From Oceaniferula flava (lineage in GTDB: Bacteria > Verrucomicrobiota > Verrucomicrobiia > Verrucomicrobiales > Akkermansiaceae), in NCBI RefSeq assembly GCF_016811075.1, contig NZ_JAFBGL010000001.1, forward strand, positions 310,001 through 374,000: DNA of 64,000 nt. The letters are read 5' to 3'. Every line of letters begins with the position of its first letter. Position 1 is the stretch's first letter. Shown in pieces: positions 54,912-59,332 of this stretch. The translations under genes and the position numbers were made by a program. The notes under the pieces were generated by a model. The model had not been told where the DNA came from. It searched no databases and worked only from the letters and a program-made list of their open reading frames with translations.

Positions 54912-55811
54912 TCATCGCTGCTGGCTGGCTAACAAACTCCCCGTCACCGAGAGTGCAACTCCGGCGCATTGCAGTCCACTGGGGAACTGACCGGCCATTG
55001 CCAACGACAGGATAATGGTTGCCACAGGCCCTGCCGAGGAAAGCACCGCGTAGGACGTGGCGGGGATTTTCGAAAGCCCGAAGGATAAAATATAGGTGGG
55101 AAGCACGGTGCCAAAGACGCCGATGATGACCCCGTAGCTGAGCACTTTAGCGGAGGCTGTTAGTGCGCCGATATCGCCCTCCGTCGTGGCAAAGTAGCCG
55201 AGGACCCATACGCAGGATATGCACATGACCACGCTGGTGTATGCCTCGGATCCCACCCGCATGATCAAGGGTTTTGAAATCAAGATATAACAGGCGTAGA
55301 GGACGGCGCTAAAGAACACCAGGCCACTGCCGAGCAAAATTCGGGAGGCCTGGTGGTGGAGATGAATTTCATCTTGGATGACCAAGTAGAGTCCGATCCA
55401 CGACAGCAAACAGGCTGCCAGCAAGGCCTTGGCGGGTCGTTTCCGCTGAACCATCGCCGATCCTAACAGCACAACAGAAGGGTAGCAGAATAAGATCACT
55501 CGTTCCAAACCGACGCTGATGAATTGCAGCCCGATCATGTTGACCAAGGAGCAGAGGAAATAGCCGAGCAAGGCGAGACCGGCAATGCTGCACCAGTCTC
55601 GGCTGGAGATGGCGCCTAACTTTTTACGCAGGATGATAGCGATCACCAAGTAGAAGGGCAAAGCGATGATCATCCGCAGCATCAAAACACTGGCGGGACT
55701 GAGTCCCTCGGCATACATCAACTTGATGACAATCCCTTTCGAGGAAAAGAGAAAGGCACCCAGAATGACGATGGCTGGTATCAGGGCGGAGGTCGGAGGT
55801 GTGGTTTTCAT
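54912..55811 (-). CDS. EamA/DMT-family exporter
   Basis: About 299 residues with ten hydrophobic helices and an internal duplication typical of EamA proteins ('ILGAFLFSSKGIVIKLMY', 'SPASVLMLRMIIALPFYL', 'GTVLPTYILSFGLSKIPAT', 'VLSSAGPVATIILSLAMA'). The family exports metabolites or amino acids across the inner membrane. The start is the ATG before KTTPPTS; the frame is open 31 codons upstream, through the terminator-like hairpin. Upstream lie a Leu-rich short frame and a rho-independent terminator, which suggest control by attenuation and possibly an amino-acid substrate. No Shine-Dalgarno sequence. Confidence 0.82.
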   Translation of the reverse strand: MKTTPPTSALIPAIVILGAFLFSSKGIVIKLMYAEGLSPASVLMLRMIIALPFYLVIAIILRKKLGAISSRDWCSIAGLALLGYFLCSLVNMIGLQFISVGLERVILFCYPSVVLLGSAMVQRKRPAKALLAACLLSWIGLYLVIQDEIHLHHQASRILLGSGLVFFSAVLYACYILISKPLIMRVGSEAYTSVVMCISCVWVLGYFATTEGDIGALTASAKVLSYGVIIGVFGTVLPTYILSFGLSKIPATSYAVLSSAGPVATIILSLAMAGQFPSGLQCAGVALSVTGSLLASQQR

Positions 55812-55824
55812 GGTGGCTAAACAC

Positions 55825-55856
55825 AAAAAACCCGCATCGAACGAATCGAGGCGGGT
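55825..55856 (-). terminator. terminator hairpin inside the EamA leader
   Basis: On the minus strand ACCCGC (55856-55851) pairs with GCGGGT (55835-55830), with an inner TCGA/TCGA pairing, and is followed directly by TTTTTT. It lies 14 bp upstream of the EamA ATG and 29 bp after the short leader frame, so it can only stop transcripts coming from upstream on this strand. Confidence 0.8.
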
Positions 55857-55884
55857 CGGTGAGTGGTGTTCTGGTTCAATTCTA

Positions 55885-55968
55885 TCAATCGATCGCACGC
55901 ACATTCCTTCCCACCGGACGAAGCCAGAGTAGAAGGTTGAGAAGGGTTGCTGAAGCGATGCGGATCAT
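55885..55968 (-). CDS. candidate attenuator leader peptide (27 residues)
   Basis: A short frame starts MIRIASATLLNLLLWLRPVG and ends NVRAID. It is rich in branched-chain residues: six Leu, of which five fall in LLNLLL, with three Ile and two Val. AGGATGG lies 7 bp upstream of its ATG. Its stop is followed by a terminator hairpin and then the EamA gene. This is the layout of amino-acid attenuators such as leu or ilv leaders. The sequence around the stop (ATCGATTGAT) can pair with the inner terminator region, a possible antiterminator. A longer version of the frame (49 residues) starts further upstream at MKIMSLALP. Confidence 0.5.
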   Translation of the reverse strand: MIRIASATLLNLLLWLRPVGRNVRAID

Positions 55969-56061
55969 TGCGACGCCATCCTGTTGGCGTCCTTGAAAAT
56001 GTAAAGAGGGAAGGGCGAGTGACATGATTTTCATCAATTTGACAAGAGAGTGAAAAAAAGT

Positions 56062-56116: not shown

Positions 56117-56206
56117 GGACAGGTGGCAGAGTGGTCGAATGCGCACGCTTGGAAAGCGTGTGAGGCAGCAATGTCTCCGCGGGTTCGAATCCCGCCCTGT
56201 CCGCCA
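56117..56206 (+). tRNA. tRNA-Ser (anticodon GGA)
   Basis: The acceptor arms GGACAGG (56117-56123) and CCTGTCC (56196-56202) pair perfectly, with discriminator G and an encoded CCA end. The D arm contains GTGGTCGAATGC, the anticodon arm is ACGCTTGGAAAGCGT with GGA, a long class II variable arm follows, and the T arm contains GGTTCGAATCC. It reads serine UCC and UCU codons. It is transcribed divergently from the EamA leader. Confidence 0.97.
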
Positions 56207-56296: not shown

Positions 56297-57742
56297 TTAC
56301 TTTTCATTCTTTGCCCGATAATGCGGGCTGCCTTCGAGCCAGTCGTAGTCGGCGTATTGGATGTTTTTGTCACCGGTCCAGCGGGGGCTTTTTGTCGTTG
56401 TCCCATTCCAGCCAGCGGGCCTTCATCGACTGCACTTTTTCCGGATATTTTGCCGCCAAGTTGTGTTTTTCGCCCAGGTCGTCTTTCAAATGGTAGAGTT
56501 CGACCCTATTGTTGCGGATGATGAGTTTGAAGTCTCCCTCACGGATCACTCCCTCGGGATCCATGTTGCGCGCGGTGTGCCAGTAGAGAGTCTGATGGGG
56601 GGCTTGGGTCGATTCCTGAGTCAGGTAGCTGCGGATATCCTTGCCGTGGAGACCCGCCTGTTGCGGCTGTCCGCCTGCCATGGCCAATGAGGTGGCCCCG
56701 ATATCGAGAGAGGTGATGGCGTCTGTTAGCACTTTGCCGCTGGCTGTCTTGCCCGGCCATTTGACAAACATGGGCACCCGGATTCCTCCTTCGTAGGATG
56801 ATCCTTTGGCCCCTCGAAGCGGTCGGTTATCGCTGGTTTTTCTCATCCCTCCATTGTCGCTCAGGAACCAGATCACGGTGTTATCGCTCAGTCCGAGGGC
56901 GTCGACCTTCGCCAGCAGTTTGCCGATCCCTTGGTCCATTTCGTAAACCATGGCGCCATAGATGGAGCGCGACTTCGGGCTGACTCCAGGCAGCTTGCTC
57001 ATCTTCTTGGGTGGAAATTTGGCGATGGTTTGCTGTGGCGCTTCCAGATCGAGGTGGGGCGCGTTGTACGACATGAAGAGGAAGAACGGTTTCTCGGTGT
57101 TCTCTACCAAAAAGCGGATACCGGCATCCGTCAGCTCGCGTGTGAGATACTGCTCCCATTGCACCGGTTTCCGGTTGTGAATCACGGGCAGTGTGTGCTG
57201 CAGATACTTGTGATTCAGGGGCTTTTTCATGGGCGAAAAGCGACCTTTGTAAGAGGGATGATCGAGCGGGAAATACATCAGTCCGCCGCCGAGGAAGTCA
57301 AACCAATCGTCAAAGCCCATGGCGTTCGGGTGTTGATCGTTGGTGGTGCCCATGTGCCACTTACCCACGCCTCCGGTGACGTAACCCTGCTTTTGCAGCA
57401 GGCTGGCGATGGTCTCCATTTTGGGCAGGCCCTGTTGGGGGTCGAAGGGGGCTGAGACGTTCTTGTAGTAGCCGAATTTCGATTGATGCTTGCCGGTCAG
57501 GAAGCCGGCACGCGAAGGGCCGCACATCGGCCAGGTGACATAGGCGGATGTGAAGCGCACCCCTTCTTTGGCGAGCTTGTCGAGATGGGGGGTGGGGATG
57601 TCCTTGCAGCCGTAGACGCCGAGATCGTTATAACCCAAGTCATCCGCCATGATGACGATGATGTTAGGTTTTTGGGCGGCTGTGATCACGCTGCAGCTGC
57701 CAGGAGTAACAGGGCGGTGAGCAGGGATGGGAGGCGCAACAT
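56297..57742 (-). pseudogene. sulfatase gene with two apparent frameshifts
   Basis: The main frame (57689-56370) encodes a family S1 sulfatase: 'KPNIIVIMADDLGYNDLG', the formylglycine motif CGPSR, GKWHMG and 'VIWFLSDNGG'. Two breaks stand out. (1) Upstream, an ATG at 57742 encodes a perfect signal peptide (MLRLPSLLTALLLLAAAA) in another frame that ends at a TGA overlapping the GTG that opens the main frame. (2) At the 3' end, inside a run of five C at about 56383-56387, the main frame goes to stop (PPLDR). A one-base shift would instead continue WTGDKNIQYADYDWLEGSPH to a TAA at 56297, a typical sulfatase tail. Both need single-base changes to restore a full exported sulfatase. It could be a decaying gene or sequence error. 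Confidence 0.7.
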
Positions 57743-57778: not shown

Positions 57779-59332
57779 TTACTTCTTGATGGGATGACTG
57801 GAGGAACGGGTGGATTCTAACAGATTTCGCATCTCTTTCACCACCTCCGGATATTTGCGATAGAGGTTGGTGGTTTGGTTACGATCTACCTCGAGGTTGT
57901 AGAGCTGGGCTGGGGGAGCGTTTTTCACAATCTTACCCTTTTGGATATCGCTGTTTTCATTGCCCACGAAGAAGATCGCAGCAGGTCCGCCAGCGCCATG
58001 GGTGCCAGGTTTTCCTCGGAAGCCGCCGTTTCCTCGTGCTGGGATATACATCCATTTCCCCTTACGGATCGCCAGATGTTTGGCGCTGCGTGGGACGATC
58101 ACGAGGCTTTCGCGCATGGGAACTTCAGGCTCATCGACCAGGGCGGGAAGCACATTGATGCTGTCGGCAAGTTGCTCGTCCGAGATGTTCTGCCCCGTCA
58201 CCGCGGCCAAGGTGGCGAGCATATCGATGCCACTGATCAACTGATCGGAGACTGTGTCGGCTGGGATTTTGCCAGGCCACTTGGCGATGAAGGGAACGCG
58301 GTGGCCACCCTCCCAGACGCCGAACTTGAAGCCGAGCAGATCGCCATTGATCCTGTGTCCGTCTTGAAAGGCATCTTGACCGCCCCGGTTGAACATGCCC
58401 CCGTTGTCGCTGGTGACAATGATCAGGGTGTTGTCGATGAGGTTATTTTTCTCCAGACATTTCACGATTTCGCCCACCTGCCAATCGAGCTCGTGAATGA
58501 AATCGCCATAAAGTCCCGCCTGGCTGGTGCCTTTGAATCGGGGGGCGGGAGTGAACGGGTGGTGGACGTTCGGTGAGGGGAAATAGAGAAAGAATGGTTT
58601 CTCCTTATTCGCATCGATCCATTGCACGGCCTTCTCCGCCAGCAGGGTGCCGGTTTTCTCGTCGTCGTAAATCGCATGCGCTTTCTTGGCGCCACCGATG
58701 CGATTGATGGTTTTTTTCCCGGCTTCCGGTGGATAGGTGGTGGTTTTTGAGTAGGGCTGATCGTAGCTGATCGGATCGTTGGGGTCGTAGCCCACAATGC
58801 CGTCGTTTTCCACATAGACGTAGGGGAAGCCGCTGTTGACCTTGGGCAGGCCAAAGTAGTAATCAAAGCCTAACTCCAGGGGGCCGGGGCGCAGGGGTTT
58901 GTTCCAATCGGTCTCGCCCTTGCCAAAGCCGAGGTGCCACTTGCCGATGGCGGCGGTGGCGTAGCCTCGGTTTTTGAAGAGCTGGCCAAGGGTGAGTTTT
59001 TCGGTATCGATCAGCAAGGGCTGCAGGTGATCGCACGGGCCCCAGATGCCTTTGCCGTTATTGGCTCGAAACGGATACTCGCCTGTGAGCAAGCCATAGC
59101 GTGACGGGGTGCAGACTGCTGAGGCCGAGTGGGCATCGGTAAAGCGGCGACCCGCCTTGGCGATGCGGTCAATGTTCGGTGTCTGCACCTTGGTGGCACC
59201 GTAGCAGCTGAGATCGCCGTAGCCGAGGTCATCGGCGAAGATGAGCACGACGTTAGGTGGTTTGGCCGAAACGCTTGCGGCTGCTAGAAGGCTGAGGACT
59301 AAGCCGGGAAGGTGTGTTTTTACGAAAGTCAT
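57779..59332 (-). CDS. exported sulfatase (family S1)
   Basis: 517 residues. Signal peptide with core LPGLVLSLLAAASVSA. Metal ligands in 'PPNVVLIFADDLGYGDLSC'; formylglycine motif CTPSRYGLLTGEY near residue 71; GKWHLG near 126; 'IVTSDNGGMFNRGGQDAF'. The C-terminal subdomain ends with 'YNLEVDRNQTTNLYRKYPE'. The Cys must be converted to formylglycine by a sulfatase-modifying enzyme or anaerobic SME, not present in this window. It would remove sulfate esters from a polysaccharide in the periplasm or outside. It starts 3 bp after the upstream hydrolase stop; part of a four-gene minus-strand operon. Confidence 0.9.
   Translation of the reverse strand: MTFVKTHLPGLVLSLLAAASVSAKPPNVVLIFADDLGYGDLSCYGATKVQTPNIDRIAKAGRRFTDAHSASAVCTPSRYGLLTGEYPFRANNGKGIWGPCDHLQPLLIDTEKLTLGQLFKNRGYATAAIGKWHLGFGKGETDWNKPLRPGPLELGFDYYFGLPKVNSGFPYVYVENDGIVGYDPNDPISYDQPYSKTTTYPPEAGKKTINRIGGAKKAHAIYDDEKTGTLLAEKAVQWIDANKEKPFFLYFPSPNVHHPFTPAPRFKGTSQAGLYGDFIHELDWQVGEIVKCLEKNNLIDNTLIIVTSDNGGMFNRGGQDAFQDGHRINGDLLGFKFGVWEGGHRVPFIAKWPGKIPADTVSDQLISGIDMLATLAAVTGQNISDEQLADSINVLPALVDEPEVPMRESLVIVPRSAKHLAIRKGKWMYIPARGNGGFRGKPGTHGAGGPAAIFFVGNENSDIQKGKIVKNAPPAQLYNLEVDRNQTTNLYRKYPEVVKEMRNLLESTRSSSHPIKK

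Follow-up and report, generated by a model that had tools for sequence, protein, structure and literature searches.

The short reading frame and intrinsic terminator that precede a lone DMT/EamA transporter gene in Oceaniferula flava probably constitute a ribosome-mediated transcription attenuator of the trpL kind, which would sense charged tRNA-Trp. Five parts of this reading are supported by comparison of genomic sequences. These are the leader frame, a Trp codon that stays constant, alternative pairings that are matched within each species, the terminator, and the link of all these to a single transporter lineage. The original prediction of leader-peptide attenuation ahead of the EamA gene is thus supported by conservation and by the species-matched hairpins, while the amino acid that it proposed is replaced by another.

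All coordinates given here refer to the window, that is, the whole stretch of 64,000 nucleotides that was analysed, and the parts of the switch lie on its minus strand. The leader peptide frame (55968-55885) starts with an ATG at 55968, comprises 27 codons and a stop that ends at 55885, and encodes MIRIASATLLNLLLWLRPVGRNVRAID; codon 15 (55924-55926) is the Trp codon, UGG. After a gap of 29 nt comes the terminator, with a stem at 55855-55831 (-14.4 kcal/mol by folding) and six T at 55830-55825. These coordinates confirm the predicted 27-codon frame ending 29 nt before an intrinsic terminator in the EamA leader. The terminator (55855-55825) is absent from the list of the consensus terminator scan, and its stem is interrupted. 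The proposed controlled gene (54912-55811, ATG at 55811) encodes a transporter of 299 residues, and a convergent frame of 144 codons lies downstream of it. Upstream of the leader and divergent from it is a tRNA-Ser(GGA) gene (56117-56206, plus strand), which is overlapped by a sub-threshold Rfam match to sX4; a tRNA-Ser was also seen by eye upstream of the G013 ortholog, so that the two share a tRNA-transporter neighbourhood. Further upstream, on the minus strand, are two adjacent sulfatase-like frames, the first (56370-57689) identified by Pfam (Sulfatase, E=1e-61) and the second (57779-59332) by eye. No recurrent gene neighbour was seen when the bare frames at 15 loci were inspected by eye; the surroundings in the window and in G013 are alike.

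A Trp-containing frame and a terminator stand ahead of 23 of 23 close EamA orthologs, from 14 genera and six families. These comprise the 22 orthologs in which the pattern was seen and one hold-out (G968), found after the pattern was known, which fits it with the peptide MAKRIKALLWIGGLPGPARRVFVV, a stop and a terminator. The comparative search that had been proposed as a check thus recovers the leader in relatives, and the frame is not lost from close orthologs that keep the gene. The gene itself occurs in 9 of 98 genomes in a protein search of relatives. A profile made from eight orthologs finds it in 21 of 386 genomes of the order, in 5 of 387 genomes of a phylum sample and 11 of 384 of a class sample, and in 7 of 68, 6 of 197 and 3 of 4 genomes of one family, another order and another family, respectively, these samples being overlapping and searched at different thresholds. 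Combined, the profile searches give 29 genomes: the 23 with the leader, and six with more distant homologs that lack the strict frame motif described below (G327, G340, G289, G360, G457 and G883). When one rule is applied throughout to the 220 nt that precede the gene, 22 of 22 leader-bearing orthologs, together with the hold-out, show a terminator-like hairpin, versus one of the six distant homologs (G457), where the site by its appearance lies in upstream coding sequence. In the protein tree, seven leaderless homologs group together (97/92) and the leader-bearing genes fall outside them.

Two further relatives were left out of the distant-homolog control of the motif test. One, Alteromonas L010, was the single relative given by a scan of genome contigs and has no such terminator. 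The other, L009 from G071 (E=7e-6, 24% identity), came from the protein search of relatives alone and sits on a very long branch that is unplaced in the tree; upstream of this far EamA homolog are a frame beginning MILWLRNARPR and a weak terminator-like site; the resemblance may be due to chance, or this may be a remote member of the leader family.

Since the RNAalifold consensus of a MAFFT leader alignment contained no base pair, the leader was modelled by sequence only. This model, trained on 22 of the 23 genomes, finds one place per genome, ahead of the EamA gene, in 23 of 23 genomes (E=7e-6 for the hold-out), with one additional weak match in G241 that is unrelated, having neither such a frame nor such a gene; the EamA gene of G241 is truncated by a contig end. 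At the sensitivity of the model, the switch would therefore serve the EamA transporter alone. No Rfam leader family matches the minus strand of the leader at E values up to 1; the sole minus-strand match, far under its cut-off (E=0.033), is located in the tRNA-Ser gene. Nine close pairs of leaders, which are not independent, show no indel inside the frame in 8 of 9 cases and no clear codon-position bias. In two of three related leaders (G663, L032, and G860, L034), 26 bases after the Trp codon are nearly identical while the remainder of the leader has diverged, a degree of conservation that exceeds what the peptide alone would demand; the third, that of G968 (L071), has a similar peptide but other bases.

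Once the leader peptides are lined up, the constant codon is UGG. The line-up was itself made on UGG, and a separate chance test was therefore carried out on 15 representatives, which cover 14 genera (the window and G013 belong to one genus). By motif criteria that were set after the sequences had been seen, 10 of the 15 representatives have a frame of 18-40 codons in which [LI]W[LI] stands 7-24 codons ahead of the stop; dinucleotide shuffles give a mean of 0.1 and a maximum of 2, the reverse strand 0 of 15 and the distant homologs 0 of 6. A looser motif, W[LIAVR], occurs in 15 of 15, compared with a mean of 2.0 and a maximum of 7 in shuffles, 1 of 15 on the reverse strand and 3 of 6 distant homologs. 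Four of the leader start codons are GTG or TTG and were picked by us. Most leaders have a single Trp codon and none of 22 has adjacent UGG codons, the G097 group, G165, G148 and G241 having W-x-W or W-x-x-x-W; tandem Trp codons are here taken as usual for attenuators of the trpL kind, not as defining them.

The original prediction was of a branched-chain, chiefly leucine, attenuator, in which stalling at Leu, Ile or Val codons would free the antiterminator. Leu codons are indeed present in 22 of 22 peptides (mean 3.87 each, and seven in the window leader) and often flank the Trp codon. However, their number and place vary, Ile is missing from 4 of the 22 peptides and Val from 3, and the switch point in the folding scan described below is the Trp codon together with the next one. 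Leu, Ile and Val codons thus have no constant place and form no conserved run at the switch point, and the branched-chain reading, which we consider highly improbable, was rejected.

In most leaders the Trp codon lies within or beside the 5' strand of a predicted hairpin, 1:2, which would act as an anti-antiterminator and in the window surrounds the codon (55906-55936). The best duplex partner of the terminator 5' arm is in most leaders a G-rich segment 2 at about W+9 to W+29. In the window, the duplex search and the swap test described next point to GGTGGG (55910-55915) as segment 2, the antiterminator 5' strand, and to CCCGCC (55850-55855) as segment 3, which would be both the terminator 5' arm and the antiterminator 3' strand. 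The stop region had been proposed as the partner of the terminator; the conserved antiterminator strand is instead GGTGGG, which comes shortly after the Trp codon. Within single genomes, shuffle tests of the 2:3 duplex are significant in a few cases and mostly not, because G-richness is itself conserved. As shuffling is unable to part pairing from G-richness, partners were swapped between genomes. Across the 15 representatives, own 2:3 duplexes average -16.8 kcal/mol versus -14.8 kcal/mol for permuted ones (p=0.0004) and own 1:2 hairpins -18.1 versus -15.0 kcal/mol (p=0.0001), while a control stretch 5' of the Trp codon gives p=0.75; when each genus is represented by one genome, the corresponding values are p=0.0003, p=0.0001 and 0.68. 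The alternative pairings are therefore species-matched across relatives. The family thus has a set of mutually exclusive hairpins (1:2, 2:3 and 3:4) whose placement follows the Trp codon, the set being weak in the window, G018 and G013. In rank, a leader's own terminator arm comes 15th of 15 in G018; for G013 and G148 the rank is 11th.

The effect of a ribosome on these hairpins was followed by folding the RNA downstream of it at each codon, with the leading edge assumed to lie 13 nt from the A-site codon; leading edges of 10-16 nt give similar profiles. With UGG in the A site, the terminator forms with a mean probability of 0.59; one codon later the value is 0.61, and it rises to 0.87 at two codons and to at least 0.94 from four codons onwards. 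Within one codon of UGG, 10 of 22 leaders drop below 0.5 in this equilibrium scan. The window's own leader does not respond, its terminator probability being 0.97 with UGG in the A site. The equilibrium scan is a poor judge in this respect, since the known attenuator E. coli trpL also scores 0.95 at UGG. A second measure is how far the terminator 5' arm is sequestered while the 3' arm has yet to be made; here the window gives 0.31 at UGG, 0.19 at the stop and 0.43 with no ribosome, and E. coli trpL gives 0.62 at UGG versus 0.01 at the stop. In silico, the antiterminator of the window's leader is weak, and the proposed mechanism is therefore rested on the family and not on the window alone.

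The position of the ribosome also bears on an arrest of the TnaC type, in which free Trp in the ribosome would stall the nascent peptide and switch on an aromatic exporter at high Trp. This direction would suit an exporter, and a lone Trp about 12 residues before the stop, as seen in several leaders, recalls TnaC. However, the distance from Trp to stop is not fixed, ranging from 8 to 22 residues across leaders, and with the stop codon in the A site the terminator is formed, with a probability of at least 0.83 in 22 of 22 leaders. A stall at the stop was rejected as the main reading on these two grounds, and we regard it as having a very slight chance of being correct.

The probable start of the RNA is suggested by promoter-like sequences. 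Of the 15 representatives, 13 have a hexamer that matches TTGACA in at least 4 of 6 positions in the bin 40-31 nt ahead of the frame, and 8 have one that matches in at least 5; in the other 32 bins these counts reach at most 7 and 2, respectively. The window has TTTACA (56000-56005), 37 nt 5' of the leader ATG, and in the G097 group the likeliest hexamer is TTGCAC, 48 nt before the frame. Given ordinary promoter spacing, this suggests that the RNA starts at the leader AUG or a few nucleotides before it. A weak -10-like hexamer read by eye, CAGGAT (3/6, 55978-55983), would place the start about 3 nt 5' of the ATG. The string AGGATGG (55981-55975, minus strand), 7 nt ahead of the ATG, had been taken as a ribosome site; with the RNA starting by the AUG, it probably is none and lies upstream of the transcript start, within the promoter. 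A precedent for an RNA that begins with the leader AUG is Sinorhizobium meliloti trpL (rnTrpL), described in the excerpt of PMC7298713; there the start is mapped and trpE(G) is controlled, whereas here the start is deduced from promoter-like spacing and the controlled gene would be a transporter. Around AGGATGG, just ahead of the leader ATG, is a 7-bp inverted repeat, GACGCCA-acagga-TGGCGTC (55972-55991, minus strand), which, if the RNA starts near the ATG, would be a feature of promoter DNA, perhaps an operator.

Terminator-like hairpins are common, and untranslated leaders with terminators are a known class; the locus could thus hold a plain terminator, or a leader that binds a metabolite or protein, with the frame incidental. 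Against this stand the frame motif at 10 of 15 where 0.1 is expected, a promoter whose distance to the start of the frame is fixed, pairing that is keyed to the Trp codon, and the lack of any Rfam family on the leader's strand at the threshold given above. We consider this the least probable of the alternatives.

The protein carries EamA domains (Pfam, E=4.3e-23) and the DMT fold and is thus a member of the DMT family. In a search of solved structures by sequence profile, no match was found at 1e-5. The AlphaFold model of the protein is a confident one, with a mean pLDDT of 84.2. Among its nearest solved folds by Foldseek are the chains of 5i20, with TM-scores (on the model) of 0.53-0.72, and LicB (7paf), with 0.73, at 14-19% identity. 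The first of these is YddG, an amino-acid exporter; LicB is a choline importer. An exporter role for the 5i20 protein is also cited from the excerpt of PMC13170310. As both exporters and importers of the DMT family are matched by the predicted fold, it fixes neither direction nor substrate. The original prediction of an EamA gene stands, but the word exporter is a family label that carries no evidence of direction.

A further property of the transporter is its low Trp content, 1.13% in the 15 representatives versus 2.79% in 18 other EamA matches from six genomes (p=0.0001, in a comparison that ignores kinship and in which some of the other matches are short or fused frames). This content and the constant place of the Trp codon relative to the hairpins would be left unexplained by a general sensor of slowed translation like that of BmrB-BmrCD in Bacillus subtilis, in which antibiotics that target the ribosome arrest it on the leader and so induce the pump. 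Such control of a transporter operon, by ribosome-mediated transcription attenuation, is described in the excerpt of PMC4191407 and would suit an exporter; it differs in responding to ribosome-targeting antibiotics and in having a 53-residue frame and an ABC transporter. A sensor of this general kind appears very unlikely here.

Genes for tryptophan synthesis are present in the same organisms, trpB being over the cut-off in 22 of 22 genomes and trpE in 20 of 22. Inspection by eye upstream of trpE at 20 loci revealed no frame with a Trp codon and a terminator; in L052 and L060 a contig end confines the stretch inspected to the gene itself. The idea of a Trp regulon that also covers biosynthesis was accordingly rejected. 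In L042 (G013), a unit of some 30 bases (GGAAATCCGACACGATTTCTTCAATGGAACA) is directly repeated several times in the region before trpE.

The tRNA-Trp attenuator would operate as follows. A promoter directly upstream would start the RNA at the leader AUG or a few nucleotides before it. When charged tRNA-Trp is plentiful, the ribosome would clear UGG and reach the stop; segment 2 would then be covered or folded onto segment 1, the terminator 3:4 would form and the gene would be off. When charged tRNA-Trp is scarce, the ribosome would wait with UGG in the A site and its leading edge would open hairpin 1:2, so that segment 2 could pair with segment 3 and the polymerase continue into the transporter gene. 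We infer four parts of this scheme: that the ribosome stalls, where the RNA starts, which state is ON and which OFF, and what the physiological role is. In its layout the leader resembles known trpL attenuators, including that of the E. coli trp operon: a short frame with one or more Trp codons, a hairpin, an antiterminator, and a GC-rich terminator with a U tract. Known Trp attenuators include those of Corynebacterium and Streptomyces trp operons and of Streptomyces trpS (excerpt of PMC1262725). The trpL leaders described in the excerpts precede genes for biosynthesis or a synthetase and have double or triple UGG, whereas here there are a lone DMT/EamA transporter and usually one Trp codon. 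Because few regulatory codons give low sensitivity in the model of PMC1183508, as far as its excerpt goes, a single UGG should respond to marked shortage only. Among the literature matches listed, which are open-licence papers, none describes a Trp leader ahead of an EamA/DMT gene, or leader-peptide attenuators in Verrucomicrobia or Akkermansia.

In classical attenuation the gene is on when the amino acid is short, which would suit an importer of Trp or an aromatic relative. The role is therefore most simply uptake of such a compound during Trp shortage, a suggestion to which we give somewhat less than even chances. For an exporter this direction is odd and counts against our preferred reading; it would fit only the export of a compound that, like a synthetase inhibitor, itself depletes charged tRNA-Trp. 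A rather unlikely idea in this regard is that the protein is indeed an exporter and that the switch warns of compounds that poison the charging of tRNA-Trp: charged tRNA-Trp would be depleted by an inhibitor of Trp-tRNA synthetase, for example indolmycin, or by a toxic analogue of Trp, the ribosome would wait at UGG, and a Trp-poor pump, which could be produced with little Trp, would expel the compound. AexB of B. subtilis, an aromatic amino acid exporter, has been suggested possibly to expel indolmycin (excerpt of PMC13170310). If true, this idea would reconcile an exporter with a gene that is on when charged tRNA-Trp is short, and the leader would act as an attenuator that senses drugs through a single tRNA, on an RNA that starts at the leader codon.

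The attenuator would thus provide a regulatory clue that points to tryptophan for this DMT/EamA lineage. It would also extend leader-peptide attenuation beyond Trp biosynthesis, to a transporter gene that stands alone, and would do so in a compact form that mostly has a single UGG and whose RNA seems to start at the leader codon. If the transporter is an importer, the label 'exporter' misleads for the lineage; if it is an exporter, the switch would be a sensor of Trp-tRNA poisons.
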